Source of the DNA: an uncultured Roseburia sp. | GTDB lineage: Bacteria > Bacillota > Clostridia > Lachnospirales > Lachnospiraceae | DNA length: 17,411 bases | NCBI GenBank assembly: GCA_947384095.1 | Contig: CANDFU010000004.1 | Span: 1-17,411 of the forward strand | Direction of reading: 5' to 3' | Part shown: one piece after another, positions 273-16,008 of the stretch | How the letters are laid out: each line of letters opens with the position of its first letter | How positions within the stretch are numbered: the stretch's first letter is position 1 | Position numbers and translations under genes: made by a program | The notes under the pieces: generated by a model | The model's input: the letters and a program-made list of their open reading frames with translations, nothing else | What the model was told of the DNA's origin: nothing | The model's database searches: none

Positions 273-662
273 TTATGGTACAAAGATGCTTGTGTTTCCG
301 GGATTTGTGATCTGAATAACCCCTGCCCAGGCGCACATAAGTTTACAATTCTGATTTAACGCCGGCTTTCCTCCTACAAGGATGGTGGGCGATCCGGGCA
401 TCCAGGGCGCCGGGATGACAGGAAGGCAGGGCATCGGCGTCAGAACGCCGAGCGCCGCCGCAGTGGCCGCCGCGACCTGCGGGTTCGCGAGAGAAGAACA
501 CATGCCGAACGGCAGGATATTTTTCATGGGTATGCAATCCATAATCGTTGCCATCGGCGGGCCGCCTGCGAGAACCCTGTTTTCCGGTGTGACGATGAGC
601 GCGGCGGGCGTCATTCCGAAACTACAGGCGCACATGGCTCCTGCGCACACACATAAGGCCAT
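273..662 (-). CDS. PAAR-like spike-tip protein (DUF4280 type)
   Basis: The product has 129 residues. It matches the DUF4280 PAAR-like pattern: a cysteine-rich start (Cys4, 6, 11, 13) leading into CSFGMTPAALIV, then MDCIPMKNILPFGMCSSLANP (41-61), PMPCLPVIPAPWMPG (76-90) and NCKLMCAWAGVIQITNPG (105-122). Nine cysteines and ten methionines occur, but no histidine, whereas classical PAAR tips bind zinc with three His and one Cys. In other systems such proteins cap the spike and may carry toxins. Here no C-terminal extension is present, so no fused effector. AAGGAGG inside the end of the upstream gene serves as its ribosome site. Confidence 0.83.
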   Translation of the reverse strand: MALCVCAGAMCACSFGMTPAALIVTPENRVLAGGPPMATIMDCIPMKNILPFGMCSSLANPQVAAATAAALGVLTPMPCLPVIPAPWMPGSPTILVGGKPALNQNCKLMCAWAGVIQITNPGNTSIFVP

Positions 663-664
663 TT

Positions 665-1450
665 TTACAAATCCTCCTTAAAATTCTGATATACTGTTTC
701 GCCTGCTTTGACGGGAAATACGGCTTCTCTCTGCCAGCCGCCTGCCGTCAGACGGCAGTATACGGGAAAACTGGTTTCTGCTCCGTCTGCGGTGAGCGCA
801 ATGAAATAGTGGGTTCCAATCGTGTCTGCCTGGTATGTTACCGCAGGGGAGAGAACCGCGTTCATTTTCCGATAGGAGTGCGCCGGCGGCTTTTCCAGAT
901 GATAGGCTGCGTTTTCAAAGTCCGCGGGGGCCGTCAGGGTAACCCAGTCTTTTCTTGCCGTATCTTTGTCTGATCCCGCGGCTGTCAGAAGATAAGTTCT
1001 TCCGCTAAGGTTCTTTCTGGTTTCCTGGAATACGGTGAGGATCGGATCTCCTGCATTGCAGTCAAGGCGCAGTCTCAAGGTATTTTTTGTGCCGGCGGCT
1101 GCGGCAAGGAGAGTGGCGCCTTGCGGCATTTCTCCCTCCAGATAAGCAGTGCCGGAAGGAAAGGGGTGTGCCCGGGACGGTAGAACGCGGATGGTCTGCA
1201 CGGGGTTACTTTCAGGAAGTGCAGAGACGTCGACAAGGATGGTCTGCCGTTGATAACGCTCCCCCTGCAGTGTCGCATGGACGAATGCTGTGTGTAATTT
1301 TGGAAATACCCAGAAGCCGTCCGGTTTTATGACTGGACGCGCGGCTCCGGGTATGGAAATATGGATGTCCGGGCTTTTGATGACGTTTCCCGTAAAGTCG
1401 TCCACCGGGAGGAGGACGAGAGGGACGTTTTGTGTCCACTGGTCTTTCAT
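665..1450 (-). CDS. Unrecognised beta-rich protein of the CIS operon
   Basis: I do not recognise this 261-residue protein. There is no signal peptide, membrane helix or coiled coil. It alternates hydrophobic strands and turns: VPLVLLPVDDFTGNVI (9-24), KPDGFWVFPKLHTAFVHATLQG and QRQTILVDVSAL look like a carboxypeptidase-regulatory or Ig-type sandwich in the first 90 residues. The second half (HYFIALTADGAETSFPVYCRLT, AVFPVKAGETVYQN) ends in further strands. GGAGGA lies 11 bases before the ATG. It is sandwiched between the DUF4255 cap gene (4 bases away) and the PAAR-like gene (2 bases away), so it is most likely a structural or assembly protein of the machine. A cargo or effector is the alternative. 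No catalytic motif is visible. Confidence 0.8.
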   Translation of the reverse strand: MKDQWTQNVPLVLLPVDDFTGNVIKSPDIHISIPGAARPVIKPDGFWVFPKLHTAFVHATLQGERYQRQTILVDVSALPESNPVQTIRVLPSRAHPFPSGTAYLEGEMPQGATLLAAAAGTKNTLRLRLDCNAGDPILTVFQETRKNLSGRTYLLTAAGSDKDTARKDWVTLTAPADFENAAYHLEKPPAHSYRKMNAVLSPAVTYQADTIGTHYFIALTADGAETSFPVYCRLTAGGWQREAVFPVKAGETVYQNFKEDL

Positions 1451-1454
1451 GATG

Positions 1455-2021
1455 CTATACTTCCTCCAGAGAAAACTGCAGATCGACGGCCCGGGTCACC
1501 TGGCGTTCCTTTGCAGATTTGATTGCCACCGGGCCTGCTTCGTAAAAGAGGGACGCCCTGTAGCCTGTTTCCGGCGCACTGAAGATATGCATTTTATCCT
1601 CAATTGACAGGTTTTGCAGAGCGACGGAGCAGAGCGCTCCGCCATCCTCCGTTTCATCTGCGCCCGGAAGCCGGATTACGGCATAGTCGTTTAGCACCTG
1701 AATAATTTTTCCGAGCATATAATGCTCTTCTCTGGCGCGACAGCTGATATCGCCGTCGGAACGTGCCATGATCATATAAAAAAGATCCACGTAGACGGGG
1801 GGATATTTCTGTCGGCTGCTGTCTGTTGTGATCATTGTGTGGCTCCGCAATTGTCCGCATTCCCTGACGTCGTAGAGCCAGACGAGGACATTGTAATCGC
1901 TTTTGTCGGACGGGCTGCCCAGTCCGATCTGATCCGCTGTTTTTACTACTCCGGGTACCAGATGTTTTTTTAATAAATTGGTTAAATAAATACCTGTATC
2001 TGCAATCGCCGTATATGACAT
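1455..2021 (-). CDS. DUF4255 tail cap/terminator protein (Pvc16/Afp16-like)
   Basis: The product has 188 residues starting at the ATG at 2021, with AGGGAGG (2028-2034) and a 6-base spacer. A longer frame from 2084 would begin inside the MORN gene with an arginine-rich, unlikely leader. The opening SYTAIADTGIYLTNLLKKHLVPG, then IGLGSPSDKSDYNVLVWLYDVREC (about 33-56) and KYPPVYVDLFYMIMARS (72-88), match the DUF4255 pattern, followed by LGKIIQVLNDYAVI (103-116). The C-terminus ends in a strand (TRAVDLQFSLEEV). In Afp and PVC this protein ends the tube and sheath at the distal side. The start codon follows the MORN stop by one base, so translation is coupled. Confidence 0.87.
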   Translation of the reverse strand: MSYTAIADTGIYLTNLLKKHLVPGVVKTADQIGLGSPSDKSDYNVLVWLYDVRECGQLRSHTMITTDSSRQKYPPVYVDLFYMIMARSDGDISCRAREEHYMLGKIIQVLNDYAVIRLPGADETEDGGALCSVALQNLSIEDKMHIFSAPETGYRASLFYEAGPVAIKSAKERQVTRAVDLQFSLEEV

Positions 2022-2022
2022 C

Positions 2023-3672
2023 TCATTCCTCCCTGCTTTCCGGCTGGATTTCCTCCGGCGAAGATTCCTCCCGCACGAAAACACCGTTTTTGTAGATCCC
2101 TTCTTCCAGGACAGTCCCGGACGGCCCGTCGTAGGTGATCCCTTTTCCGTTTTTTACACCGAGCAGAAAAGAGCCTTCGTACAGCAATTCGCCGCCCGGG
2201 CCATATAGTTTCCCTTCCCCGTCGTAGAAATCCAGGCGGAATCCGCCCTCATAGACCAGAAAATTGGTCTGCGGGTGATAGAGCGCGCCAGTTCCGGATT
2301 TTTTTCCCTGGAAAAAAGTGCCCTCGTAAATTAAGTTTCCGGTCGGCCCGTCAAATAATCTGCCGTTTCCGTCATAGTGGTTATCTTTAAATCCGCCCTC
2401 ATAGATCAGAGAACCGTTTTCATAGTATTTCCCGTCTCCGTTTTTAAGGCCTTCCGCAAACATTCCCTCGTAAGAGATATTTTCACCCATATAAAGCGTT
2501 CCGTTTCCGTCATAATGGTTATCTTTAAATCCGCCTTCGTAGATCAGGATACCGCTGATATCTTCATAGAGTTTTCCTTCTCCGGAGTACTGCCCCGCGG
2601 CAAACTGGCCTTCGTAGAGAAGCCCTTTTTTTCCGTAAAGCATGCCGCTTCCCTCGTAAAGGCCGTCTGCAAATCCGCCTTCATAGAGAAGGCTTCCGTC
2701 CTCGCGGTATTTTTTTCCGTAGCCGTTTAAAACACCGTCCGTCAGCCCGCCGTCATAGCGTGTGCCGTCTTCTTCCGCGATAGTTCCGATTCCCTGGATC
2801 AGGCTGCCGTCTTTAAATTCGCCCCGGCATACAACAGTTCCGTCGTGGCCGTAGAGCGTGCCTTCCCCGGAATAGTTTCCTTTTAAAAATCCGCCCTCAT
2901 AGATGAGCGAGCCGTCACGGTAAAGCTTTCCCTCTCCGGAATATTCGCCTGCGGCAAAGCTTCCCTCGTATTCTGTTTTTCCGTCTTCCCGATAGGATGT
3001 TCCGGCGCCGTCAAAAAGCCCTGCGGAGAAGCCTCCTTCGTAGCGAAGACGGCCGCTCTCATAATAGAGGCATCCGTTCCCCTGGTAGTGATTTTGTTCA
3101 AAGGTTCCTTTGTATTGTACGGACCCGTCGGGATAGTAGGTCTGCCCGCTGCCGGTATACATTTCCATTTCAAAATTGCCCTCGTAGAGCAGCTTTCCGA
3201 AATAATCATAGAGGGTGCCCCGGCCGTTTATCCGCCCGTTGTCAAGCCTCCCCTCGAAAATGACGCGGGAAGTCCCAGGCGCCAGCAGTTTTACTTTTCC
3301 GGTGTAGAGATACATCGCGGGAGAATTGACTTCCATTGTCTTTGTAAAAAATTTTGCCTGTGCGGACGGAATCCCCCAACGGACCATCAGGATGGCGCAG
3401 ACAAGCAGCAGGAGGAGAGAGAGGCTGAGAAACTTTCTGGATACCAGAAAGCGTCCGGCGGGGATGTAATCTTTATCTACGTCCGGTTGTGCCGTAAATT
3501 TCTCTTCTGTCTTTTTGCGGATATCCTGCGCCGCCGTATCGATAAATTCTGTGAAGGACAAGGATCTGCGGATGGCATGGAATTTCTTCTTTACAGGCAG
3601 AAAAACTGCGCGGGCAGATTTTCGGATGAGGTAGCGCACACTTATTCCGATTCTGGATTTGCGGAAGGCCAT
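2023..3672 (-). CDS. Membrane-anchored MORN-repeat protein
   Basis: The product has 549 residues from the ATG at 3672. A GTG at 3681 is also open, but AGGTG at 3679-3683 with a 6-base spacer fits the ATG. Residues 1-75 are basic and polar. One transmembrane helix follows at about 82-98 (FLSLSLLLLLVCAILMV). Then come about 16 MORN repeats plus a partial one, each 22-25 residues with the consensus YEGxFxxGxYxGxGxLY (for example EYEGSFAAGEYSGEGKLY). The tail ends in an acidic stretch. Positive charge before the helix predicts a cytoplasmic N-terminus and the repeat solenoid outside. MORN repeats make beta-hairpin ladders that act as scaffolds or bind lipid and protein. I know of no established CIS structural role. 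Placement between baseplate genes and the DUF4255 cap gene suggests it serves the machine, perhaps as an anchor. Confidence 0.9.
   Translation of the reverse strand: MAFRKSRIGISVRYLIRKSARAVFLPVKKKFHAIRRSLSFTEFIDTAAQDIRKKTEEKFTAQPDVDKDYIPAGRFLVSRKFLSLSLLLLLVCAILMVRWGIPSAQAKFFTKTMEVNSPAMYLYTGKVKLLAPGTSRVIFEGRLDNGRINGRGTLYDYFGKLLYEGNFEMEMYTGSGQTYYPDGSVQYKGTFEQNHYQGNGCLYYESGRLRYEGGFSAGLFDGAGTSYREDGKTEYEGSFAAGEYSGEGKLYRDGSLIYEGGFLKGNYSGEGTLYGHDGTVVCRGEFKDGSLIQGIGTIAEEDGTRYDGGLTDGVLNGYGKKYREDGSLLYEGGFADGLYEGSGMLYGKKGLLYEGQFAAGQYSGEGKLYEDISGILIYEGGFKDNHYDGNGTLYMGENISYEGMFAEGLKNGDGKYYENGSLIYEGGFKDNHYDGNGRLFDGPTGNLIYEGTFFQGKKSGTGALYHPQTNFLVYEGGFRLDFYDGEGKLYGPGGELLYEGSFLLGVKNGKGITYDGPSGTVLEEGIYKNGVFVREESSPEEIQPESREE
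2028..2034 (-). promoter_or_regulatory. Ribosome binding site that fixes the DUF4255 gene start
   Basis: AGGGAGG with a 6-base spacer precedes the ATG at 2021. It lies inside the end of the MORN gene and rules out the longer frame starting at 2084. Confidence 0.75.
2361..2409 (-). repeat. Near-identical DNA repeat within the MORN array, copy 1
   Basis: This 49-base segment matches 2499-2547 at 45 of 49 positions; both encode IYEGGFKDNHYDGNG. The spacing is 138 bases, exactly two repeat units, which suggests a recent two-unit duplication or gene conversion. Confidence 0.85.
2499..2547 (-). repeat. Near-identical DNA repeat within the MORN array, copy 2
   Basis: Partner of 2361-2409, with four mismatches in 49 bases, three of them at silent positions of the shared peptide and one at the edge. 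The other units of the array are visibly less similar at the DNA level. Confidence 0.85.
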
Positions 3673-3701
3673 ATTTAACACCTGCTTTCTTGCTGCTTTT
3701 T

Positions 3702-4187
3702 TCAGCCCATTTCCGGCCGTGGATTGTTTTCCTCCGTGGACTGCGTGTCCTGTAGGGGGCTTTGTAAGGTTTCGTTTTCCGTAGATGGCGCTTCCTGGGG
3801 AGGAACCGATTCGGTTTCTTTTTCGCCCGCCCCCATATTTTCCACGGGGGGAAGGGGAGTAATCCTAAGGATTCCGATATTCTGAATCTGGTTTCGCTGT
3901 GCGGGCGCGTCTTCCGGAATCAGGCAGACGAAAAGCAGGAGACCCGACAGTGCGCCGACCAGCATCCAGTACAGAACGGCGGGAACGGCGGCGGTATTCT
4001 GGATCATTCGGTTCCAGAGGCGTAGCAGAAGTCCGTTTCGAAGTAGTTTTCCTTCGCCCTGTGCGTTTCGCAGGGCGGCGCTCATCTGGCGGAAGGCGCC
4101 CAGAAGCGCTGCTTCTCCTGAAAAGGATGCGGCGGTAAGTTTTTTGATAAAGTCTGCAAGTTCCTCGGATGCCTCCTGTTTTAATTC
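3702..4187 (-). pseudogene. Membrane-anchor and tail segment of the interrupted kinase-like gene
   Basis: The frame is open from 4187 to a TGA at 3702-3704 and is in phase with the kinase-like gene above the TAA. The first ATG is at 4085 (127-residue product) and lacks a Shine-Dalgarno. An AGGAGG at 4172-4177 has no start codon at a usable distance. Numbering from that ATG, residues 33-55 form one hydrophobic helix (VPAVLYWMLVGALSGLLLFV), preceded by arginines and followed by an acidic tail rich in Pro, Glu, Ser and Thr (57-127). The charge pattern predicts N-inside, C-outside. I read this as the anchor and outer tail of the kinase-like protein. As a separate protein it would be a short single-pass membrane protein translated from 3702-4085. 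Whether either form is made cannot be told from the sequence. Confidence 0.6.
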
Positions 4188-4190
4188 TTA
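4188..4190 (-). other. In-frame ochre (TAA) codon that splits the kinase-like membrane gene
   Basis: The sense strand reads CTG TTT CAC TAA GAA TTA AAA CAG. The frame is open on both sides: 174 codons before it and 161 after it. The 34 codons just after the TAA contain no ATG, GTG or TTG, yet encode a plausible amphipathic stretch (ELKQEASEELADFIKKL). TAA ends other genes here (for example the PAAR-like and LysM genes), so the standard code applies. A single base change from CAA, GAA or AAA, or a sequencing error, explains it most simply. Confidence 0.75.
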
Positions 4191-4712
4191 GTGAAACAGG
4201 GCCGCAAGGCAGTCCGAAAACCGTTTCTGGACGCCGGGAAACAGATCATCGCCCAAAAGCTCCGGCGTAAAAAGCAAAAAATTGACAGAAAGGCTGCGGG
4301 CGGCGCCAACGACGATATTTTTCGGATGCAGCGCCTCATACTGTAAGTAAACCGGAAGGTTTTGGGCAAAAATCTGTTCTGCCAGGGCGCCTGCCAGGAC
4401 AATTTTTTCTTCTGTGGGAAGCGCTTCTTTTCCTGTTTCAAAAAAAGGTGTTCCGGCGGCATAGTCGGACACGGCCCAGACTGTTCCGTCTCTGATAAAG
4501 CTGTCCGTAAAGCTTCCCACAATGCCCCGCCCGTGCAGATCCATGTAAAAGGGCAGAAATTTTTCTGACAGTGTACGGTCTGCGATGCCTGTCACAAGAA
4601 CGGTTTTTTCATCCGGAGCATTGCTGCAGATACACACGTAGGCCCGAATGGAGGGGCTGGCGTGAAGTTTTTGGACGGCGCGGTACTCCCGGTCGATCGT
4701 TTTTAATGTCAT
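4188..4712 (-). CDS. Degenerate kinase-like protein, N-terminal part of an interrupted gene
   Basis: The product has 174 residues before a TAA. Its ATG overlaps the TGA of the upstream gene (ATGA). The arrangement resembles a protein-kinase C-lobe: a hinge-like WAVSDYAAGTPFFE (79-92), a helix with LPTEEKIVLAGALAEQIF (98-115), then YEALHPKNIVV (125-135) where kinases have HRDLKPxNI, and SVNFLLF (142-148) where they have DFG. The catalytic HRD reads YEA and DFG reads NFL, and no glycine loop or VAIK lysine is visible, so it would be a pseudokinase. This is a pattern-based inference with moderate support. The frame continues after the TAA into the downstream segment without a shift, so the real gene was probably 335 codons (3702-4712) with a membrane anchor. 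Confidence 0.6.
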   Translation of the reverse strand: MTLKTIDREYRAVQKLHASPSIRAYVCICSNAPDEKTVLVTGIADRTLSEKFLPFYMDLHGRGIVGSFTDSFIRDGTVWAVSDYAAGTPFFETGKEALPTEEKIVLAGALAEQIFAQNLPVYLQYEALHPKNIVVGAARSLSVNFLLFTPELLGDDLFPGVQKRFSDCLAALFH

Positions 4713-6502
4713 CCGGTCACCTGCGTATCCCGGACGACCACGAAGGCGGAGGCGGTGACATCCTGCCAGACGGCGCTTCTGGCGACAATTTCATAGATTC
4801 CGGGCGCGTCGGGCGCTGAGTAAATGCCGTTTTCATCGATGGTTCCTCCGCCTGGTTCGCGGACGGACCACACAACCCGTCTGTCTGCCGCCCCGGTAAA
4901 AAATACATCAAAGGAGTAGTCTTCCCGCAGGGAGAGATAAACCATATCCGGCCTGATGAATAATTCGCGCTGTCCTGTTTCCTCTTCTTCCTGGCGGGTC
5001 TTTACCGCCGTCCAGTGAATGTTGACGCGCCCGGCCGTCGTCGGCCGTGTCAGCTTTAATCCGACTGTAAATGTACCTTCGCTCCGGTCGGCGCGTATGG
5101 CAAGATCGCCGTGCACCATGCTTTCTTCTTCAAAAATACCGTAAGCACCGTGGCAGAGATAGCGGTCTTTTTCCCCGCAGGCCATCCGGCAGAATACAAG
5201 GATGTCGCCCAGCCCAAGACCGTGCGCCACCGGCTGTGAAAAAAATTTCTGCCCCGTGAGCCCCCCGACGCCGAACTCGATGCTGACGACGCCCTCCGCT
5301 GTCCTGAGATGTTCCGTCTCTGCCTGCAGTCCGGTTTCTGTCAGTGTCTCTGGAATGATTTGTTCGGAAATATGTTTCAGGCGGCGCTTAAAACTTTTCA
5401 GTTCGTCTTCCGCAGTTTTTTCTCTGATGGAAGAGAGGATATCGCTGCGGATATACTGGCAGAACGGCATCGGTGCCACCTCGTCGATTATGACGGCGTC
5501 CCCGGCGCGGATCAGATTGATTCTGGCCAGATAAATATTCTGCCGGTAATTTCCGTTCAGAATTTCCTGCATGGCTTCCGAAAAATAGTTCTGGCTGACA
5601 GCCTCCCGGATGCTGCCTGTAATGATTCTGACCGTGTTGTCCGCCCGTACCGGATAGCGTTCCGATCTGGCGCCTTCATGCGCGCCGTCTTCCAGTACAT
5701 GTTCCCCCGCTTTCAGCCAGAAGCTGCCGTCTCTTAAGGAGACGCTTCCCTCCACATCTTTTACGTCCAGGGCGCGGACGGTGACAGGTATTTCATAGCG
5801 CACAGATGTTTCGTGCTGTCCTTCATCAAAAAAAAGTTTTATCCACCTTTTGCGGTCTTTGTTTAAATGTTCGAGCGAGAGTTCATAGCCAAACGAGATC
5901 GGCAGTTTTTGTCCCAGATTTTCGACGATGACCCGGAAATCAAATTCGTTTCCGCTTTTTGCATATTTTGGGAAAACCTGGCTGATACGGATGTTGTTTC
6001 CCTGGTATACAAGAGTGGCGTCTTCATAATAAGAAAGCGCTCCGGTGTTCGCTGCCGGTTCCTGTCCTGTCAGGTAAATGTGGTATCCCTCGGCGGTTTT
6101 ATTGTGACAGACCGATTCGCCGTCCGGATCGGGATCCGCTACGTGATAGACCGGATCTTTTTCATATTCGGAATATTCGATGCACAGATACTGGCAGCCG
6201 TCCCTTTCGGGGGTATTTGCGGAAAATCCGTCGATCGTGGAGATTTTTTTTAATACCGGTTTTTCCACAAGAATTTCCCGTCCTGTAAAATCAAGGGCCA
6301 GTCCTGCTTCCAGCGAGATCGTATCGTCTCCGACGGGCACGACGCCGAGGCCGCAGACGACGCCGCAGCCGTGCATAAAGCGGTTGATCAGTCTGCGCTT
6401 ATCGTTCATATATTTCTGTTCGGATTCGAAATCGTCGACGCTTAAGAGCTTTCCGTAAAAATACCGGTTTCGTTCATATGGGAAATAGTTCAGATTTTTC
6501 AT
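4709..6502 (-). CDS. CIS-associated protein with conserved N-terminal domain and Ig-like C-terminus
   Basis: The product has 597 residues if the ATG at 6502 is used. An ATG three codons upstream (6511) abuts the AAGGCGG site without a spacer, so the second is preferred. Residues 11-82 hold RNRYFYGKLLSVDDFESEQK, MNDKRRLINRFMHGCGVVCGL and AGLALDFTGREILVEKP. I have seen the pattern 'RNrYFYGKLltv.DFe.EQ' in uncharacterised proteins of CIS clusters, but no function is established for it. The middle is beta-rich with one helical part (about 360-400). Residues 513-597 look like an immunoglobulin-type domain (RVVWSVREPGGGTIDENGIYSAP...GIYEIVA). There is no signal peptide or membrane segment. Position after the tail-I gene, where Afp-like clusters carry tail-fibre genes, suggests a peripheral baseplate or target-binding role (inference). 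Confidence 0.75.
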   Translation of the reverse strand: MKNLNYFPYERNRYFYGKLLSVDDFESEQKYMNDKRRLINRFMHGCGVVCGLGVVPVGDDTISLEAGLALDFTGREILVEKPVLKKISTIDGFSANTPERDGCQYLCIEYSEYEKDPVYHVADPDPDGESVCHNKTAEGYHIYLTGQEPAANTGALSYYEDATLVYQGNNIRISQVFPKYAKSGNEFDFRVIVENLGQKLPISFGYELSLEHLNKDRKRWIKLFFDEGQHETSVRYEIPVTVRALDVKDVEGSVSLRDGSFWLKAGEHVLEDGAHEGARSERYPVRADNTVRIITGSIREAVSQNYFSEAMQEILNGNYRQNIYLARINLIRAGDAVIIDEVAPMPFCQYIRSDILSSIREKTAEDELKSFKRRLKHISEQIIPETLTETGLQAETEHLRTAEGVVSIEFGVGGLTGQKFFSQPVAHGLGLGDILVFCRMACGEKDRYLCHGAYGIFEEESMVHGDLAIRADRSEGTFTVGLKLTRPTTAGRVNIHWTAVKTRQEEEETGQRELFIRPDMVYLSLREDYSFDVFFTGAADRRVVWSVREPGGGTIDENGIYSAPDAPGIYEIVARSAVWQDVTASAFVVVRDTQVTG

Positions 6503-7670
6503 GCCTGTCATCCGCCTTTCTTGTATTTTTTGCTCCGATCACGGAAAAAGGGAGTTCGCTGTGCCCGTCCAGCCTGAGCGTCCGGTAGCGCCCCAGAACG
6601 CTGTTGATTCCGAGATAGGAGTGGTGGTCTAAAAGAATGCAGGGCTTTAGCAGGACGATTCTGCACTCCATGTGAGCCGGTTTTGCCGTCCGGGCAATCT
6701 GCGCAAGCGCCGCGAGGCTGTTTCCCACATCGTTTTTCCCAGGGCTGGTTAAAAGGGCAAATTCCCACCGATGCCTGGCGTAAAGACGTTTCAGGAGGCG
6801 TTCCCGTTTTCTGCCGTCGAAAAACGGACAGATCTGATGGTATTCGACGATAAATACCGATGTTTGCGTGTAGAGGCTGACAAGCTCCTTCAGGCAGGAT
6901 ACGGTTCCGCGGCAGGCGCGGATCCGGCGTGCATGCCCGATCAGATACACAAGCTGTTTTTCATTCCACAGTTCCTTATTTTCGATGGACAGCCAGTCCG
7001 CCAGTTTAAGGAGCATGCCGTCCCCTTTTGCAGCCGGGTTTAAAAGTCCGGGAGTGCCTTCGATCTGTTCCGTCATGTCGTCGAAGAATGTCTGAAAAAT
7101 GCCAAGATAACGCGCCAGAAACGAAGCGCTTTCTCTGTCGGCGGAATATACTTCCGGCAGATAGGAAAGCCACGTCTGTTTTGGAAAATAAATCTGTACG
7201 CGACTGATACATGGAATCTGCCCGGCCTGTGTGTTCAGCTCAATTTTAAGCCAGAGATATCGGCCTTCCACGGAATCTTCCGAAGAGAAAAGCAGGATAT
7301 CTTTTGGGATATTGTATGTGGCCCTGCAAAAACAGGCCAGACTTTCCTCCTTCTGGTTCATCGTAAGACGTTTATCGGAAAGGACTTCCTCCACTGTCAC
7401 TTCATTTGAGAGAAACAGGCTGTCCGAAGTGTAGACGGCCACGGTGCAGGAGGATTCCCCCGGCATCTCTCCGGTGAGGCACAGCCGGTGCCAGGCCATT
7501 CTGCGCTCCCGGCTGTCAAAAATCCTCGTGTAATAGACGCCCGCCGCAGCGGGACTGCGGAGAGAGAGGCCGTCGTGTCCGATGCGGATATTGTCGCCGT
7601 ATCCCCGCCTGAAATCGCTTTCCTTGTTCAGAACAAAATATTTTTTTCGAAGAGAGACCGTAGGTTCCAT
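6474..7670 (-). CDS. Phage tail protein I-like baseplate component (Tail_P2_I / TIGR02242 type)
   Basis: The product has 398 residues. Residues 165-270 match the tail-I core: QTWLSYLPEVYSADRES, ASFLARYLGIFQTFFDDM, GDGMLLKLADWLSIENKELW and the RACRGTVSCLKELVSLYT segment with its invariant RGT at 254-256. The first 160 residues form a beta-rich domain (RRMAWHRLCLTGEM, YLWLKIELNT) that resembles the sheet placed before the tail-I core in eCIS versions. In known machines this protein sits at the wedge tips and carries fibres or peripheral proteins. Its 3' end overlaps the next gene by about 29 bases, which suggests coupled translation with that product as a partner. Confidence 0.83.
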   Translation of the reverse strand: MEPTVSLRKKYFVLNKESDFRRGYGDNIRIGHDGLSLRSPAAAGVYYTRIFDSRERRMAWHRLCLTGEMPGESSCTVAVYTSDSLFLSNEVTVEEVLSDKRLTMNQKEESLACFCRATYNIPKDILLFSSEDSVEGRYLWLKIELNTQAGQIPCISRVQIYFPKQTWLSYLPEVYSADRESASFLARYLGIFQTFFDDMTEQIEGTPGLLNPAAKGDGMLLKLADWLSIENKELWNEKQLVYLIGHARRIRACRGTVSCLKELVSLYTQTSVFIVEYHQICPFFDGRKRERLLKRLYARHRWEFALLTSPGKNDVGNSLAALAQIARTAKPAHMECRIVLLKPCILLDHHSYLGINSVLGRYRTLRLDGHSELPFSVIGAKNTRKADDRHEKSELFPI

Positions 7671-7700: not shown

Positions 7701-9815
7701 TCAGATCTGCCCGGCGACATAGGATACGATAAGGCAGCATTCTTTTAAATAAGCCAGTCCGTTGACGGGAAGAAGGATGTCGCCGGTTCTGCTGCGTCCG
7801 TTCTCTTTTCCCTGCGCATCCATACCAAAGGAGCGGATTTCGCTCACGCAGTCGAGCACATCGACCGCCCCGTAGAGATCGCTGTAGGAAATCCGTATGC
7901 CGAACAGAGAGCGGATCCGGGAAAAATAGCCTGAAAGTGTCCGGGTAATCTGCTTTTTTGCCGTTGTGGGTTCTGCTGTCGTCTTGATCTCGGCAAAGAT
8001 GGTAATGCCGAGATATTCCGGAGAGAGAATCACAAGTTTTGTCCCGATCATGCGCCGCGGGTTTAAGAAACGAAGCAGATTCTGGCGGAACGGTTCGCTT
8101 AAAACTGGTTCCCGCTCCATGGAACAGGGTTTTACAACGATTGTCACTGTCTCCGCCTGTGTCCCGGAAAGCTGCGTGCGGAACTCTGTGGACGGGATGA
8201 CTCTGGCATTTTCAATCAGAAGGCCCGGCGCCTGCATAAGCAGCGTTTCGTAGTCCCCATAAGTGACGGCCCGGTCCGGCTCTTCCTGCAGAAACCGGCT
8301 TTTGCAGGTTCTCATTTCTTCCATATCTTCACCGCCGGCAGCTTCCCTTGCATTCGTTATAATCGGCAGCTTTCCGGAAAGATAGGAGAGCGGTTCTGCC
8401 CGGCGGATGCTTCCCGCCCTTACATTGCCCATTGCGCCGAGGCTGGTTTTTGCCGCCGCGATCAGAAGCCGTCCTTCCGGCGCCGCGCCGTGATCGCAGT
8501 CACCAAAGAGAAGGGTTCCCGTTTTTTCGTCCGGATGAAAAACCAGATCTTCGGGGCCGTGCGCGCTGAAATCGTCGGTCTTAGTCCAGAAACGGTACTG
8601 TCCCGGGTGAAGGCCGCCCTCTTCCGCCATGACGCAAAGATCCTCCGTTAAAAGTCCGGGAATGCCTGACGGGTAATTCTGCCAGGGCATTCCGGTTCCC
8701 TCTCCTGGCGAAATCTGGTTTTTACAGGTCTGATCGTACAGGATCAGGAGACAGCGTACTTTGGCGGCCCGTTCTGTTTTCCGGATGCCGGGAAGGCAGA
8801 ACATGACACCTTCGCGGCCCCGTTTTCGGCAGTGAGGCCCTTTGTAGGGGAAAAACCTGCCTTCGCGTTCCACAAAGAAAAGGGCATTTCCCTCATAAGC
8901 CAGGCGTGTCCTTAAGATAAAGTATTCCTCGGCTGCCAGAGAGACGGCATGGTTTTCAATCAGTGTGCAGGTCTGTCTGACTTTAAGGCGCGAAAGGCTG
9001 ACTTCCTCAATGACAGGCGGCATGTCATAATCGCTTCTGGCCAGTGTAAGAAAGAGCCGGTAACGGCCATCCTCTCCCGGTATCATTGTCTTTTCGGTGA
9101 GAAAAGTCAGAAATCCGTTCTGAAGCAGCCCGTGTGTGGTATCCTGGCGGATAACCGCCTGTTTTAGTCCATCTGTGGTAAAGCAGGACAGCGTATATTC
9201 CGCCAGAGGGATGAAGGAATCGTCGGTGATCGGTCTGCGTTTTTTCGGAGTGTCGGAAAAAAGATGAAAATACAGGCTGTGTCCGACGCCTGGCGCAAGC
9301 GGTCCGGAAAGTATGAGTTCCAGGGTATCCCCGGCAGACGGGTGCATGCCAAAAGCTGGAAAACGGAGCTTTTTTTCCACTACTGTGATTTCACTGCTTC
9401 TGCCGCAGCCTTTTTCCGGATTTTTTTTAAGGCAGGCCAGTCCCGATATCTCTGTCGTATCGATCCATCGCTCGTCTGTCGTCTCAAAACAGATATCGTC
9501 GGCAAAAAAGCGGCTTCCCTTCGGAAAGAAGGTCGGTTCCGAAAGATTGGTTAGGGACAGGACCGTTTCTGCGGGCCGTATACCGCGGGGCGTGATCCCC
9601 ATCAGTTTTAGAAAACCGCGCAGATGTGCTTCGCTGATCTGGTCGAGGTGAAACTGCTGCATTTCTTTTTGCCAGGCGATCAGTTCCAGCAGGGTAATGC
9701 CCGGGTCGTGGGCGTTGTAATCTGTCCATTCCGGATAAAGCCCGGGAATTTCTTTTAGTGCTTTTTCGACAATTCCGGCAAAGGTTTCGTCGTCCAGTCC
9801 GATTTGTGGGATCAT
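7701..9815 (-). CDS. Second baseplate J-like wedge protein (Afp12-related)
   Basis: The product has 704 residues. It opens with PGLYPEWTDYNAHDPGITLLELIAW-type sequence (about 24-48), parallel to the N-terminus of the preceding 1009-residue protein, so the two are probably distant paralogues. The second half shows the J-core: TGTLLFGDCDHGAAPEGR, GAMGNVRAGSI, IITNAREAAGGEDMEEM and RAVTYGDYETLL (about 450-560). C-terminal ferredoxin-like arms follow (IFAEIKTTAEPTTAKKQI). GGGAGGCGGC directly before the ATG supports the start, and the gap from the upstream stop is only 10 bases. It is likely the partner subunit of the wedge heterodimer. Confidence 0.87.
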   Translation of the reverse strand: MIPQIGLDDETFAGIVEKALKEIPGLYPEWTDYNAHDPGITLLELIAWQKEMQQFHLDQISEAHLRGFLKLMGITPRGIRPAETVLSLTNLSEPTFFPKGSRFFADDICFETTDERWIDTTEISGLACLKKNPEKGCGRSSEITVVEKKLRFPAFGMHPSAGDTLELILSGPLAPGVGHSLYFHLFSDTPKKRRPITDDSFIPLAEYTLSCFTTDGLKQAVIRQDTTHGLLQNGFLTFLTEKTMIPGEDGRYRLFLTLARSDYDMPPVIEEVSLSRLKVRQTCTLIENHAVSLAAEEYFILRTRLAYEGNALFFVEREGRFFPYKGPHCRKRGREGVMFCLPGIRKTERAAKVRCLLILYDQTCKNQISPGEGTGMPWQNYPSGIPGLLTEDLCVMAEEGGLHPGQYRFWTKTDDFSAHGPEDLVFHPDEKTGTLLFGDCDHGAAPEGRLLIAAAKTSLGAMGNVRAGSIRRAEPLSYLSGKLPIITNAREAAGGEDMEEMRTCKSRFLQEEPDRAVTYGDYETLLMQAPGLLIENARVIPSTEFRTQLSGTQAETVTIVVKPCSMEREPVLSEPFRQNLLRFLNPRRMIGTKLVILSPEYLGITIFAEIKTTAEPTTAKKQITRTLSGYFSRIRSLFGIRISYSDLYGAVDVLDCVSEIRSFGMDAQGKENGRSRTGDILLPVNGLAYLKECCLIVSYVAGQI

Positions 9816-9825
9816 GCCGCCTCCC

Positions 9826-12800
9826 TTATTCTGATTCTGCCGTGACTGTGTGATTTCCGCTCAGAGCTACCGCGGCTCCTGCCATATATTCCCGTGAAAG
9901 ATGTTTCCGGTCGCGGCTGAAAGGGTCGATTTCGACGCGCCCCTGTCCGGCGTCAAGCGATACGGCGACCCGCAGCTCTCTGATATAACGGATATCCGGG
10001 ACGCCTTTCAGGGCATTCCGGATCTGGGCTTCGTTTGGAATGAAGCCGATATCCCAGCCCTTCCCGTGGTAGTTTCCCGTGACGGGGTGAAAAAATTGTT
10101 CCAGACGCCGCAATATATGCTTCTGTGTCTGGAAAAGGTCGCCGGTTCTGCTCACAGCGCGGACGAAACAGTCGATCTGAAGAAATTGAGGCGCGGCGAT
10201 AAAAAGGCGTCCTGTGCCGGCGAGATTCCCGTCCATCCTGTCGGCGAGATAATCCGTGATCTGTTCCCGCAGCCGCTCGAAACAGACGCTGTCGGTATGA
10301 AGATCTTTCGGGAGTACGATCAGTGTCAGACATCCTGGTTCGTATTCTCCTTGCGGTGTGTATCCGCTGAGGCATTTTACGGATTGTATGGAGCGGGACG
10401 CTTCCCGGGCGAGCAGTTCGTAGTCGGCTGCAGTGACGGCCCTGCCCATGTGGCGCAGGGTTTCGCTGCAGCGGTTTATGGCCGCGTCCATTGTTTCCCG
10501 GCCACACCCTCCGCAGAGTGGAAACGGGGCGTTGACACGGCTGACATATCCGAGGGAGCTTTGGGGTGTGAGTACCGTCCTGGCGGGCAGGTTTCCACCG
10601 GAACCGTTCACGCAGCGATAATCAATGCGGATAGTCGTATTTTTGCCGTCGGCCGGCAGGGCGCCGTTGAGTCCGTCCGAAAAGGTTACAATACCGCGAT
10701 TTTTGTCGAGTAGATAATGCCGGTCTGTGGCGGCCGAGCGGGAAAAATCAGCAGTCTCCTCCCATTCTGTCCACAGTTGCATGTGTTCGCCGTCCGGGTC
10801 CTTAACTTCCGTGAGACGTCCCTTAGCCCTGAGCGCCTCCCTTGCGGAAGGGCTGAGGGTAGCTGTTTCGTTGACACGGACGGTGAGATCATAAATATTT
10901 TCCCGCAGGAGACGGCAGACTTTGTTTTTTTCACCGGCTCTGATTTCAAAAAATTCCGGCGGCCTGCGTTCTGCAGCCAGGATCTTTCCCGCGTTCAGGC
11001 GGAGGTTTCGTATAAAGGGAGACAGGCTGTTTTTTTTGCCGGAGGATTCTGTTTTACGGGTCATCCGAATCCAGTAAGCCTCTTCGCCGCAGATAGAATG
11101 CGGAGCAAAGTCCTCTTTTCCGGGAAATGTCAGGCAGCCGCTTTTTTGCAGCCCGTCGGTTCCGTCGATAACAAAGAGCGGGGCGAATCCGTCCCTGCGA
11201 CGATAGGCGAAGGCGAGATCCCGGCGTTGCGTGCGCATATGTAAAGGCTGCCCCGCGATGTCGCAAAACAACTTGACTGGCCCTGTTGCAAGCGGCCGGT
11301 CAAACCCGAGGTAGAGAGTATCTTCTGTTTCGCATCGTCCGGAAAACACCTCCCAGACGCCGCAGGCCGCGCTGCCGGTATGGTTCTGGAACATGCCCGG
11401 CGGGGCGGCCGAGGATTCCCCGTGGTTGCATGCCATGGCAAATTCGGGCTGTCTTCCCTTGCCCGCGTAGGAATAATGAAAACGTACTTTGTGTATCACC
11501 GGCGTGAGATAAGTTCCCTTCGGGCGGTACAGATTGTTCATGCGCAGCACTCTCACCCTCAGGTATCGGGTCGGCGCGCTTTCCCAGGTCAGAAGCGCGG
11601 CGTTGTCCGGACAGGCAAATGTGAGTGTCACTTCATCTCCGGCCCTGCCGGAAACGCCGTTAAAGAGAGACTGACTGCTTTCCTTTACGGGAAGCCTGCT
11701 CCAGCCGTCTCCGTTGTAATATTCCCACACGACCTGTTCGACGGTGACGTCATACTGCGGATCCGGCATAAAATCAGCGCGTCTCATCAGGATTTTCCAC
11801 TTGCGTTCGGCCGGGACCGTGTTGTCGAGCGGTATTTTTTCGTAGTCGAGAAGAAAGGTCAGGCGTACGATAGCGCCCGGTTTTCCCAAGGCTTCCTCCG
11901 AGGAGAAATAGCATTCGGCGAACAAAGAGGGGTATTCCCCGAAAGGGAAAAAACCGGTATCCGGCTGTTCGCCCGTGCCGTTTGTGATCAGGTCTGGCTT
12001 GATCCCGCTTCTTTCCGAAGTGAGGCGGATGTCCTGCACGAAAAACGGCTCTCTGTTCCAGGGGCCGGAATAGCGGCAGCAGAGCCAGTATCCGTTTTTG
12101 CCGAAAAGCGTCGTCTCTTCCGGTTCCGGACAGCCGGCGGGAAGGGACAGGACAAACGTCTCCCCGTCGGGCTGCACATCGTCCAGCTCCAGAAAGCCGT
12201 CTTTCGTCGCGTAAGAAATGTGCACAGACGTGCTGTCTTTCATCCAGTCGTTATCTTTCTTTCCAGGACCCGGTCCGCCCGGCTCAAGAGCCAGCCGGAT
12301 TTGGGCGGACTCCCTTACGTGCAGGACTTCGCTCTGACACAGATAGAGAACATGCTCCCGGTCTGCCCCGGCCTCCGCGGAAAAGGGGAAAAACGGCCGA
12401 CTGCTGTCTTTTTTTTCAATATAGTCCTGCTTTCCGTCGACATAGATAAGATGTGTCAGTTCTGCCGGGGTGACAAAAAACGTCTCCGCCGTTTCATAGA
12501 TGATGTCTTCTTCCTCTTCGTCGCCGTGCGGGCCGGTAAGCACGGTTCCTTCCGGTATCATGGTTCCGCCAAATTCATGGCTTGAGAGTGAAAAGACGGC
12601 GTATCCTTCTGCGGGAAGGGCGGGCAGCATCTTTAAGTTCTGTTCTGCAAAAAAGCGTCGGCAGAGCTTTTCGGGGATGCGGTCATACCGTTTTACCGTC
12701 TCCGAAAACAGCTCCGCGAAAATCAGCGCCAGTGTGGTTCCGGCGTCGGGGTGCGCGGGATCAAATTTCCACTCCGGAACGTAAGCCTTTGCTTTTTGCG

Positions 12801-12855
12801 CGATCTGTATGACGAGATCTTCTTTTGTCCGGCTGTCTTTTTTTTGTATTTTCAT
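9826..12855 (-). CDS. Large baseplate J-like wedge protein (Afp11/gp6-related)
   Basis: The product has 1009 residues. The N-terminus carries VPEWKFDPAHPDAGTTLALIFAEL, the 'ypeWt.......Gi.LlElfA' motif of CIS wedge proteins. The middle (about 150-680) is a long beta-rich insertion with paired WYNGD-like strands (VVWEYYNGDGWSRLPV). The J-type core lies at about 760-900: VTFSDGLNGALPADG, a GSGGNLPA turn, then NAPFPLCGGCGRETMDAAI and RAVTAADYELLAREA, followed by ferredoxin-like arms to the C-terminus. With the next gene it should make the wedge dimer that surrounds the hub and triggers sheath contraction. The Shine-Dalgarno (AAAGGAGG) lies 13 bases before the ATG, a long spacer, and there is no better start. 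The size is at the upper end for this family. Confidence 0.87.
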   Translation of the reverse strand: MKIQKKDSRTKEDLVIQIAQKAKAYVPEWKFDPAHPDAGTTLALIFAELFSETVKRYDRIPEKLCRRFFAEQNLKMLPALPAEGYAVFSLSSHEFGGTMIPEGTVLTGPHGDEEEEDIIYETAETFFVTPAELTHLIYVDGKQDYIEKKDSSRPFFPFSAEAGADREHVLYLCQSEVLHVRESAQIRLALEPGGPGPGKKDNDWMKDSTSVHISYATKDGFLELDDVQPDGETFVLSLPAGCPEPEETTLFGKNGYWLCCRYSGPWNREPFFVQDIRLTSERSGIKPDLITNGTGEQPDTGFFPFGEYPSLFAECYFSSEEALGKPGAIVRLTFLLDYEKIPLDNTVPAERKWKILMRRADFMPDPQYDVTVEQVVWEYYNGDGWSRLPVKESSQSLFNGVSGRAGDEVTLTFACPDNAALLTWESAPTRYLRVRVLRMNNLYRPKGTYLTPVIHKVRFHYSYAGKGRQPEFAMACNHGESSAAPPGMFQNHTGSAACGVWEVFSGRCETEDTLYLGFDRPLATGPVKLFCDIAGQPLHMRTQRRDLAFAYRRRDGFAPLFVIDGTDGLQKSGCLTFPGKEDFAPHSICGEEAYWIRMTRKTESSGKKNSLSPFIRNLRLNAGKILAAERRPPEFFEIRAGEKNKVCRLLRENIYDLTVRVNETATLSPSAREALRAKGRLTEVKDPDGEHMQLWTEWEETADFSRSAATDRHYLLDKNRGIVTFSDGLNGALPADGKNTTIRIDYRCVNGSGGNLPARTVLTPQSSLGYVSRVNAPFPLCGGCGRETMDAAINRCSETLRHMGRAVTAADYELLAREASRSIQSVKCLSGYTPQGEYEPGCLTLIVLPKDLHTDSVCFERLREQITDYLADRMDGNLAGTGRLFIAAPQFLQIDCFVRAVSRTGDLFQTQKHILRRLEQFFHPVTGNYHGKGWDIGFIPNEAQIRNALKGVPDIRYIRELRVAVSLDAGQGRVEIDPFSRDRKHLSREYMAGAAVALSGNHTVTAESE

Positions 12856-12890: not shown

Positions 12891-13319
12891 TTATACGGGC
12901 CGGATTCCGTTGCCCTCGTTCAGGTAGAAAGGAAATACCATATTATAGGGATTGTTTGTCGTGCGGACGATATAGCGGACTTCGATTCTTAGCGCGCCGT
13001 CCGACATGTGCTCCCTGCCGATAAAAACTTCCGGTTTTTTGATCCGGGGTTCCCAGCGGATTAAGGCCTGGGTGATCTCCTCTTCCATACTTTTAAGGTC
13101 TGTCAGATTTGTATCGGAAAAAGCATATCTGCGGATACCGCATCCAAATTCAGGCTGCATGGCGCGTTCGCCTTTTCCGGTGAAAAGAATCAGTTTCACT
13201 GCCTCTGCGATCTCTTCTTCCCCCGAGACTGTTTCGACCCTTCCGGTAACGGGATTGACTTTTGGAGGAAATTTCCACCCGCAGCCAAGAAAATCCGCAA
13301 TACCTGTTATTTCGCTCAT
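12891..13319 (-). CDS. gp25-like baseplate wedge protein (GPW/gp25 family, Afp9-like)
   Basis: The product has 142 residues, the normal size of the family. The diagnostic segment GKGERAMQPEFGCG lies at about 48-61, followed by LTDLKSMEEEITQAL (72-86) and the conserved EPRI at 90-93. The N-terminus FLGCGWKFPPKVNPVTG matches the family opening. A perfect AAGGAGG with a short spacer precedes the ATG. In T4, T6SS and eCIS this protein clamps the baseplate wedge to the first sheath ring, so its presence strongly supports a contractile machine even though the sheath gene is outside the window. Confidence 0.95.
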   Translation of the reverse strand: MSEITGIADFLGCGWKFPPKVNPVTGRVETVSGEEEIAEAVKLILFTGKGERAMQPEFGCGIRRYAFSDTNLTDLKSMEEEITQALIRWEPRIKKPEVFIGREHMSDGALRIEVRYIVRTTNNPYNMVFPFYLNEGNGIRPV

Positions 13320-13400: not shown

Positions 13401-14225
13401 TCAGTTTAGTTTCAGCATCGACCCTTTCAGCTGCGCCATGCCGCTGCTCTCCGCCGTGAGGGAAGCCGTTCCCTTCAGACCCAGGGATGCCTGCGCCTCC
13501 ACTTTGACATTCTGGCCCTTGACGTTGGTGCTGCTCCCGTCGAGGGTGGTATTCTGCCCATTCAGAACCAGTTTCTGCCCCGCCCCGATATCGATATTGT
13601 CCGCGCTGATCGCGGCCTTAGAGGTGCTTCCGTCAAGTGTGAGCAGTTCTTTGCCGCTGACTTTGAAAATTGCTTTCTTTTTTGCGGTGAACGTCATCAC
13701 ACCCTCTTTTGTGTCAATCTGGAAAGCGTTTTCTTCTTCTTTATCCTGTGCGGCTATTATCTGATTTTCATCGTCGAGGGTAAGGTTCAGTCCCCCTTTG
13801 GTCATAACTGTGATTTTTTCCTTTTTTTCTTCGTCCGAAATCGTAATCCGGCTGCCTCCCTTGGTGAGGATTGTTTTTGCGGTATTTTTTTCGACCGCCG
13901 TGTCTGGGGGAAGGACGTTCGTCTGATTCCAGAGGCAGCCGATAACGTAAGGGCTGCCGGGATGCCCCAGATGAAAAGCTACGATGACCTGGGAGCCGAT
14001 TTCCGGCAGAAAGTAGATTCCGAACCCGTTGCCCGCGTAGGCGGAAGCGACCGGGACCCATCCAAGGCTGTTTTTTCCCTCTTCGCCGAGCAGCAGACGG
14101 ACTTTTATCATGCCCGGATGATCTTCGTCCCAGTTCTCGGTGACTTCCCCGACGACGATCCCGTGAATCAGACCGCCGTCGTCTTCCTTTTCTTCCAGAT
14201 CGAGCAGCTCGTCGTAGAAGCTCAT
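13401..14225 (-). CDS. Central spike protein, gpV / gp5-like (C-terminal half of VgrG)
   Basis: The product has 274 residues. Residues 19-105 are an OB-fold of the baseplate-assembly-protein-V type: GIVVGEVTENW, GMIKVRLLLGEEG, GWVPVASAYAGNGFG, FLPEIGSQVIVAFHLG and PYVIGCLWN. From about 112 to 274 the sequence becomes short repeating strands (KTILTKGGSRITI, VMTKGGLNLTL, IDTKEGVMTFTAK, then NIDIGAGQ, VKGQNVKVEA, SLGLKGTASL), which is the triple-stranded beta-helix needle. It ends MLKLN, as many spikes do. It should trimerise on the hub and puncture the target envelope. The next gene (gp25-like) begins 81 bases further on, the widest gap in the cluster apart from the interrupted kinase-like gene. 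Confidence 0.9.
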   Translation of the reverse strand: MSFYDELLDLEEKEDDGGLIHGIVVGEVTENWDEDHPGMIKVRLLLGEEGKNSLGWVPVASAYAGNGFGIYFLPEIGSQVIVAFHLGHPGSPYVIGCLWNQTNVLPPDTAVEKNTAKTILTKGGSRITISDEEKKEKITVMTKGGLNLTLDDENQIIAAQDKEEENAFQIDTKEGVMTFTAKKKAIFKVSGKELLTLDGSTSKAAISADNIDIGAGQKLVLNGQNTTLDGSSTNVKGQNVKVEAQASLGLKGTASLTAESSGMAQLKGSMLKLN

Positions 14226-14234
14226 GTTTCCTCC

Positions 14235-15317
14235 TTATTTTTTCTCACGCTTTCCTCCAAGTGTAAAATCGGTCGTATATCCGTCGGTTCCGAAAGAATG
14301 TTCTGTGGATGTGATATAATAATCTCCGTTCACGGTATTGTCCAGCCCGTCGATCGTAAGATAGCGGCCAGGGACGAGTACGGGGATGCCGATGCAGGAG
14401 CCTCCTGCAGATTGCTTTTCTTCTTTCAGGGCTTCTTTTTCCCGGTCGGCGCGCGCCGAGAGTTCTTCTGCCGAGGTGATGTCGGGCAGGTTGATGATTC
14501 TTGCCGTGGCGCCGGTGAGAACGCTTTTTCTGGCGGATTTAAAGGTGCGCGTCTCTGTCGACTGTTTTGTACCCTGCCTTTGGTTTCCGCGTACCGTGAT
14601 CTCGGTGTCCGTGTAGCCGTACCGCTGGGAAAAAGAGAGCAGATCCTGGCCGAAATGCAATGTCGTTATGGGACTGTCCTCGCTTTTTTCCGTGAAGCAG
14701 GCCCTGTTTCCGCAGACGAGAAAGCGGCGGTTTGCCACTTTGCAAAGCCATGCGACCATTTTCAGATCGTTTCCGTTCTGCAGTACCGGGGCTTTCAGTT
14801 CAACCGTGGTTTTGTCCACTGTGAGCGTCAGGCCGAGGTTTTCATAGCGTGACATAATCTGTTCGAAAAGCTTCGAGTAGGTCGCCGCCTGCCATTCATA
14901 GTTTTTGCGGTAATTATCGCACATCAGCCGCCGTACATCCACGGCCGTGATCTGCATTGCAGGGATTTCCCCGAATTGCACACTGCTTTCATAGATAAAG
15001 CCGCAGAAAAGTGTTTCCAGCTCCGATTCATATCCGATCTTTGCTTTGAGTATATTTCCAAGGCAGAGCGCATCCCGGATGCCGCTGCGAAAACAGTGGT
15101 TTTCGATGTCATAAATATCGACGACGGTAAAACTGACGCTTGCGGCATCTTTTAAGTTCATGGATATCCTTATATTTTCAATCTGTGCGTGATAGGCCGC
15201 GGCAAGATCTTTCTCCGGACTCCCGACCAGGATTTTTGCGGCGGGAACCCTGTAGTTTTTGTATTTCTGCCGAAGTTCGTCATTGGAAAAAACAGCTGTC
15301 AGAAAATTAGTTTCCAT
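14235..15317 (-). CDS. Baseplate hub protein, late-control gpD / gp27-like (N-terminal half of VgrG)
   Basis: The product has 360 residues and resembles the phage late control D family. Seen: the opening IENIRISMNLKDAASVSFTV (46-65) typical of the first hub barrel, ALCLGNILKAKIGYES and LFCGFIYESSVQFGE in the next strand pair, then ITAVDVRRLM. The middle has a helical part (YSKLFEQIMSRYENLGL). Near the C-terminus VLVPGRYLTIDGL..TVNGDYYITSTEHSF ...GYTTDFTLGG is the classic late-control-D ending. As a trimer such a hub forms the centre of the baseplate and accepts the tube. In Afp8-type VgrG this domain is fused to the spike; here they are separate genes, 9 bases apart. An AGGAGG site precedes the ATG with a spacer of about 9 bases. 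Confidence 0.9.
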   Translation of the reverse strand: METNFLTAVFSNDELRQKYKNYRVPAAKILVGSPEKDLAAAYHAQIENIRISMNLKDAASVSFTVVDIYDIENHCFRSGIRDALCLGNILKAKIGYESELETLFCGFIYESSVQFGEIPAMQITAVDVRRLMCDNYRKNYEWQAATYSKLFEQIMSRYENLGLTLTVDKTTVELKAPVLQNGNDLKMVAWLCKVANRRFLVCGNRACFTEKSEDSPITTLHFGQDLLSFSQRYGYTDTEITVRGNQRQGTKQSTETRTFKSARKSVLTGATARIINLPDITSAEELSARADREKEALKEEKQSAGGSCIGIPVLVPGRYLTIDGLDNTVNGDYYITSTEHSFGTDGYTTDFTLGGKREKK

Positions 15318-15978: not shown

Positions 15979-15980
15979 GG

Positions 15981-15988
15981 CTCCCTCC
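15981..15988 (-). promoter_or_regulatory. Ribosome binding site that fixes the LysM gene start
   Basis: GGAGGGAG on the sense strand lies two bases before the ATG at 15978 (5 bases from its GGAGG core). It overlaps the codons that the upstream ATG at 15990 would use, so that earlier ATG is unlikely. Confidence 0.7.
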
Positions 15989-16008
15989 ATATATCTGAAA
16001 AGCAGCGT

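Follow-up and report, generated by a model that had tools for sequence, protein, structure and literature searches.

A conserved set of genes for a probable pseudokinase, a MORN-repeat protein with one transmembrane (TM) helix, called TM-MORN, and a Cache-HAMP sensor bears on how gut bacteria with a single membrane keep their contractile injection systems (CIS) in place, direct them and trigger them. The set is seen on a stretch of 17,411 bases from an uncultured Roseburia sp., hereafter the window, which is the entire contig C4 of an incomplete genome assembly (G000; 61.6% complete, 396 contigs). The pseudokinase and TM-MORN genes lie side by side between the baseplate genes and the cap gene of a CIS operon. 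Each is predicted to be a single-pass membrane protein with its N-terminus inside, the former having a kinase fold with no Asp aligned at the catalytic position and the latter carrying its MORN repeats outside, and a Cache-HAMP-type sensor is usually encoded in the same operon. We consider it probable that this pair is the core of a membrane docking and firing-control module of a cell-retained CIS in Clostridia; the reading is supported in part, docking or firing control being what we infer while its other parts were computed.

The operon was recognized as a CIS operon by tube, gp25, spike, J-like baseplate, cap and PAAR-like genes lying together, combined with a sheath gene elsewhere in the genome. 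On the minus strand the order is tail tube, a 271-residue protein, CIS_tube, a YQBQ-like protein, spike, gp25, two J-like proteins, a tail-I-like protein, a 600-residue protein named P600, the kinase-like protein, TM-MORN, Pvc16, a 261-residue protein, a DUF4280 PAAR-like protein and the start of the sensor. Pfam matches from tube to PAAR-like protein thus place the two membrane genes inside a contractile injection operon, as the first-pass annotation, made from the letters of the window, had proposed, and its DUF4255 cap gene was confirmed by a Pvc16_N match (E 9e-23). The sheath family PF04984 was found in all 15 genomes tested, in 11 of them on the P600 contig; since the sheath gene of the Roseburia genome itself is on another contig (C75), its link to the window operon is presumed. 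Among the window proteins covered by a PHROGs scan the MORN protein alone matched, to an unnamed family.

To what extent the pair belongs to this CIS type was surveyed with P600 as bait, by searching profiles against six-frame translations of locus regions. The 76 loci comprised 47 regions of named contigs, 20 of a family sample (200 genomes with 22 further P600 carriers, 20 of them used) and 9 of a phylum sample; after setting aside 8 loci with less than 4.5 kb of room and 2 duplicates, 66 unique assessable loci were left. Both genes were present at 59 of these, the MORN gene at 62, the kinase-like gene at 59 and the HAMP-sensor profile at 55. A check fixed beforehand, absence of the pair from the equivalent place in related operons, therefore had the opposite outcome. 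Even among the 8 short loci 5 show both genes, the remaining three (L071, L073, L089) ending 5 to 139 bases past P600. In the main clade the P600, kinase-like, MORN and Pvc16 genes are consecutive, with nothing in between. At genome level, a profile of the MORN N-terminal and TM region (A2) matched 19 of the 200 family genomes, in all 19 beside P600, and the kinase-like profile matched 35 at E 0.001, among which the 18 strong matches (E 2.4e-9 or better) all adjoin P600. P600 was matched in 18 of 398 phylum genomes, strongly in 9, and 7 of these 9 have a strong kinase-like match adjoining it; of the 9 weaker ones 3 were taken into the survey and 6 left out. The kinase-like gene of G129 was missed at genome level and found at its locus (L086), G146 was not in the survey, and the P600 match of G141 is a fragment in a 2027-residue frame. 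The gene pair belongs to this CIS type.

The kinase-like gene overlaps the end of the P600 gene by 4 bases, and its frame is interrupted by one TAA, beyond which similarity to the intact relative at locus L029 goes on (173 columns at 68% ahead of the stop, 163 at 60% past it). The TM helix lies in the part beyond the TAA, which reflects either loss of function or an assembly error. The predicted structure of the intact L029 homologue has the two lobes of a protein kinase fold, all 50 listed structure matches being kinases, kinase-homology domains or complexes of these, and the family profile links to Ser/Thr kinases. Active Ser/Thr kinases carry a catalytic Asp (HRD) and a metal-binding Asp (DFG). 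None of 32 aligned homologues has Asp at the aligned catalytic position, and most show an FNY-like motif at the expected DFG site, so that judged by its residues an active kinase is unlikely, apart from exceptions considered below, and the protein is probably a pseudokinase that has lost kinase activity. The alignment holds no conserved stretch, and a homologous-protein search with A1, whose candidates were picked by shared words, yielded only 8 proteins. The balance of Lys and Arg favours an N-inside, C-outside orientation in 57 of 60 homologues. In most of the 32 the outer part is about 25 residues long and ends in an IGT-like motif. The kinase-like membrane protein with an acidic outer tail that the annotation had described was thus borne out as to membrane and fold, and the tail is real in the window and close relatives; the tail is missing from most of the 32 homologues, and the TAA had gone unmentioned.

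For TM-MORN, the open reading frame (2023-3681) gives 552 residues from a GTG, and the alignment of relatives points to an ATG at 3672. The Pfam MORN match covers 6 stretches with 68.7 bits against a cut-off of 22.5, which assigns the protein to the family. By eye 16 repeats and one partial repeat are seen, and a strict pattern finds 14 (mean 0.018 and maximum 2 in 2000 protein shuffles), in agreement with the roughly 16 repeats outside the membrane that had been claimed. The TM helix is at residue 84 (score 2.38), preceded by about 80 residues, many of them basic, with 5 Lys/Arg before and 2 after it. Charge favours N-inside in 51 of 55 MORN homologues, in line with the topology predicted earlier for both proteins. 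A loose repeat pattern gives 3 to 41 matches in these 55 homologues, and overcounts, as it finds 23 in the window protein. The best solved relatives in a PDB profile search are FAP266 and MORN1.

The third membrane protein, noted earlier as starting at 246, proved to be the N-terminus of a homologue of the Cache-HAMP protein L029:16212-17891, which matches HAMP (1.2e-11) and weakly Cache (2e-4, below its cut-off). Among 24 sensor homologues 19 match HAMP, 7 SpoIIE and 1 Guanylate_cyc, and among PDB entries the profile of the family hits adenylate cyclases (E 1.3e-8) and HAMP proteins. Aligned with the metal-binding Asp motif of cyclases, the five closest relatives (L029, L030, L031, L034, L037) have Glu for the first and Ala for the second Asp, which speaks against cyclase activity; the first Asp may be retained in L088 and L090. 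By eye, the usual Asp motif is missing from five rows taken to be SpoIIE members, L080 being a named SpoIIE match. The output domain appears adenylate-cyclase-like, and degenerate in close relatives, or SpoIIE phosphatase-like, in some cases degenerate too (L029:16212-17891, L048:17623-19266, L080:8170-9837). Possibly, then, a run of pseudo-enzymes stands beside the pseudokinase. In a divergent clade a sensor-family protein is encoded between the kinase-like and MORN genes.

How such a set could act is suggested by its neighbours and by known machines. The cytosolic pseudokinase would bind the assembled baseplate, most likely via the adjacent crown-like P600, and hold it at the membrane; the MORN rod would reach into or through the wall, where it might mark or brace the exit path or read the surface; and the HAMP sensor would relay an outside signal to the pseudokinase, upon which the baseplate would be released to fire. 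Whether a neighbour or the producer would be the target cannot be told from sequence. We see the pseudokinase as the baseplate contact because of the 4-base overlap and the analogy with EssB and TraF (PMC13037476). As a tentative extension, quite possible yet not what we expect on balance, the module would be a monoderm counterpart, built of unrelated parts, of the trans-envelope complex of the type VI secretion system (T6SS): a pseudokinase hub on the baseplate crown, a MORN solenoid lining or marking the wall path, a Cache-HAMP sensor whose often degenerate cyclase- or phosphatase-like outputs trigger by protein contact rather than catalysis, and, in some lineages, OEP-like or S-layer-homology (SLH) proteins completing the outer part.

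In the diderm T6SS the membrane complex TssJLM holds the baseplate and a PpkA kinase pathway controls firing. A membrane complex holding the baseplate and kinase-linked firing control are the shared features, proposed only for the present system, which differs in that its kinase domain appears inactive and its host is not diderm. The downstream proteins scanned gave no Pfam match to a Tss family, no search being dedicated to TssM, TssL or TssJ. EssB/YukC of the type VIIb secretion system (T7SSb) and TraF of the pIP501 type IV secretion system (T4SS) belong to Gram-positive secretion machines and likewise join a cytosolic pseudokinase to a TM segment; YukC is described as an interaction hub (PMC13037476). 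Compared by layout, the pseudokinase, single TM and extracytoplasmic part fit EssB/YukC; the machine is a different one and the outer part is mostly short here. Membership of EssB/YukC (PF10140) was not supported by sequence: 7 kinase-like homologues, searched with HMMER and its filters, showed no hit up to E 5, and alignment of the family with one EssB protein by hhalign was insignificant (probability 0.2%), there being no sequence similarity to it. EssB was not among the 50 listed structure matches, which excludes nothing. If docking is true, this would be the third Gram-positive secretion machine with a membrane pseudokinase, after T7SSb and conjugative T4SS.

Among CIS, the mode of action is set by how the baseplate meets the membrane in known systems (PMC8894136). 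CisA (SCO4242) of Streptomyces coelicolor is a membrane protein required for firing in a Gram-positive host, and cisA occupies the usual place of the fibre gene (PMC12237407), which is also where the conserved membrane pair sits. As described there, CisA resembles the present proteins in its single TM helix, cytoplasmic N-terminus, gene position just downstream of the baseplate genes and association with one CIS type; it differs in its largely unstructured N-terminus and substrate-binding-protein-like outer domain, whereas here the inner part is a kinase fold and the MORN repeats outside belong to a second protein. The thylakoid-anchored CIS of Anabaena (Cis12/Cis13/Cis19) is likewise held at a membrane, and its crown protein Cis19 (PMC8894136) is the best, though weak, PDB profile match of P600 (All3314, 7b5h; E 0.021, 56 positions only). 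Anchoring differs, as it relies there on the fibre Cis13, which has a putative TM helix, and on a Cis12 extension; neither kinase nor MORN appears as a word in the passages on this system (PMC8894136). In haloarchaeal T6SS-like CIS a conserved membrane gene, Hbor_38620, also tracks one cluster group; its product has six predicted TM helices, the envelope is archaeal, and the gene lies upstream of the core cluster (PMC11566945). A literature search for pseudokinase with contractile injection, with many subscription papers and bioRxiv preprints outside its coverage, was empty. For MORN with contractile injection the match in PMC6748792 is 'morning', other matches being judged by title, and passages of PMC8213781, PMC10598620, PMC12210884 and PMC12998442 do not mention MORN. 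Kinase is absent from those of the latter three; in those of PMC8213781 it occurs only as a histidine kinase beside regulator genes, in kinase-activated regulators and in a reference title.

Several points weigh against a docking or firing-control module. Attachment to the membrane, interaction and firing are predictions from the genes, and operon conservation by itself would also fit a role in assembly or at the surface. With duplicates counted, both genes occur at 40 of 41 named-contig, 17 of 18 family and only 4 of 9 phylum loci; since P600 served as bait and the profiles derive largely from the named-contig loci, their share of the count cannot be taken as independent and the family and phylum sets are the fairer test. 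Similarly, 12 of the 19 A2 genomes are independent, the rows of A2, or a duplicate of one, coming in part from the other 7 (the Roseburia genome itself, G022, G041, G054, G076, G174, G180). Of the seven assessable loci without both genes, L068, L111 and L112 form a group with a shorter P600 (519-528 residues) and a TM-MORN gene on the opposite strand without a kinase-like gene; L095 has neither membrane gene despite Pvc16, PAAR, AAA and eCIS-core-like genes, and the other three, L113-L115, also have neither. The Cis19 match of P600 is weak, the window's own kinase-like gene is interrupted, and inactivity is not certain for every member, because L047, L065 and L066 have Asp one residue off the catalytic position and L065 and L066 read CFYD at the DFG region.

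The most serious competitor, which we hold to be unlikely, is a self-directed cytoplasmic CIS as in Streptomyces, where the module would be a stress checkpoint with transient docking, puncture of the producer's own membrane and cell death, and no injection of neighbours. CisA, bitopic, encoded downstream of the baseplate genes and needed for firing inside the producer (PMC12237407), and the Cache-HAMP sensor linked here would suit it; self-killing would have no obvious need for work outside the membrane, which is suggested by the extensive MORN portion on the outer side and, in some clusters, by OEP-like and SLH-domain proteins. Still less likely, in our estimate, is that the particle is a free eCIS and the pair assists its assembly, surface display or the producer's defence against particles it has itself released. 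Strict operon linkage also fits such an accessory or immunity function, as does an eCIS_core (DUF4157) protein in L030 with similar genes at five other loci, while two membrane proteins plus a sensor where tail fibres are usually encoded, and the unbroken main-clade gene order, speak against it. That the genes are unrelated neighbours brought together by chance is scarcely credible given the 59 of 66 loci and the 19 of 19 MORN-profile matches beside P600; nothing was found in its favour. A prophage origin was not supported either: two pattern scans of viral contigs gave a P600 relative in 1 of 101 candidate stretches (residues 12-84 only) and a MORN relative in 0 of 4, capsid and terminase genes not being searched for. 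With the gene set standing beside a possibly crown-like baseplate protein, the question is directly testable in cultured commensals; cultured bacteria that carry the cluster are Angelakisella massiliensis (L065), Anaerobacterium chartisolvens (L063) and Flavonifractor sp. An92 (L041), and L043 and L065 are examples of complete clusters.

Features of the window, listed from tail tube to sensor
Feature	Positions	Strand	Evidence or remark
Tail tube protein	16867..17322	-	Pfam Phage_T4_gp19 1.5e-15
271-residue protein	16009-16824	-	no Pfam or PHROGs match
CIS tube-initiator-type protein	15307..15990	-	Pfam CIS_tube 4.1e-36
YQBQ-like protein	between CIS_tube and spike genes	-	
Spike (gpV/VgrG-like) protein	13401..14225	-	Pfam Phage_base_V 2.6e-20
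gp25 baseplate wedge protein	12891..13319	-	Pfam GPW_gp25 4.9e-24
Baseplate J-like protein	9826..12855	-	Pfam Baseplate_J 1e-8; PDB 9gtp 7.7e-26
Baseplate J-like protein	7701..9815	-	Pfam Baseplate_J 3e-8; PDB 9gtp 1.4e-21
Tail_P2_I-like baseplate protein	6474..7670	-	Pfam E 0.0042, below family cut-off
P600 (600 residues), beside baseplate genes	4709..6511	-	weakly Cis19-like near N-terminus; PDB 7b5h All3314/Cis19 E 0.021
Kinase-like (probable pseudokinase) domain, up to in-frame stop	4191..4712	-	model of L029 homologue; profile links to Ser/Thr kinases
In-frame TAA of kinase-like gene	4188..4190	-	relatives have intact copies
Kinase-like frame after the TAA, with the last part of the kinase domain, a TM helix and an outer segment (IG motif, acidic tail)	3702..4187	-	
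TM-MORN, with a basic cytosolic part of about 80 residues, a single TM helix and a predicted outer part of about 16 MORN repeats	2023..3672	-	Pfam MORN 2e-19; start from relatives
Pvc16/DUF4255 cap protein	1455..2021	-	Pfam Pvc16_N 8.7e-23; likely start ATG at 2021 (by eye)
261-residue protein, after Pvc16 in many relatives	665..1450	-	no Pfam or PHROGs match
PAAR-like DUF4280 protein	273..662	-	Pfam DUF4280 3.4e-36
Cache-HAMP membrane sensor, N-terminal 82 codons, cut by contig end	1..246	-	78% identity over 81 residues to L029:16212-17891

Other proteins recur in some of the clusters. Large proteins that are related to each other and hydrophobic over a stretch near the N-terminus are encoded downstream of MORN at 11 divergent loci (including L085:7509-9671 and L063:17355-19406), and 4 of the 5 scanned (L063, L064, L085 and L087, not L091) match Pfam OEP (outer-membrane-efflux). 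An SLH protein, L043:18660-21548, lies in a CIS cluster and has relatives in L039, L040, L041 and L070. With one query each, which makes the counts lower bounds, relatives of the SLH protein were found in at least 5 unique loci, of an AAA ATPase in at least 26 and of the L030 eCIS_core protein in at least 6. L111 and L112 also encode, close by, an ABC_sub_bind protein and one of about 800 residues with many TM helices. In L113-L115 the match is limited to the N-domain of P600 and neither membrane gene is present; these appear to be a different CIS-like type, with a glycosyltransferase downstream in the two tested (L113, L115) and, in L113, also a deaminase-type toxin with Imm5.

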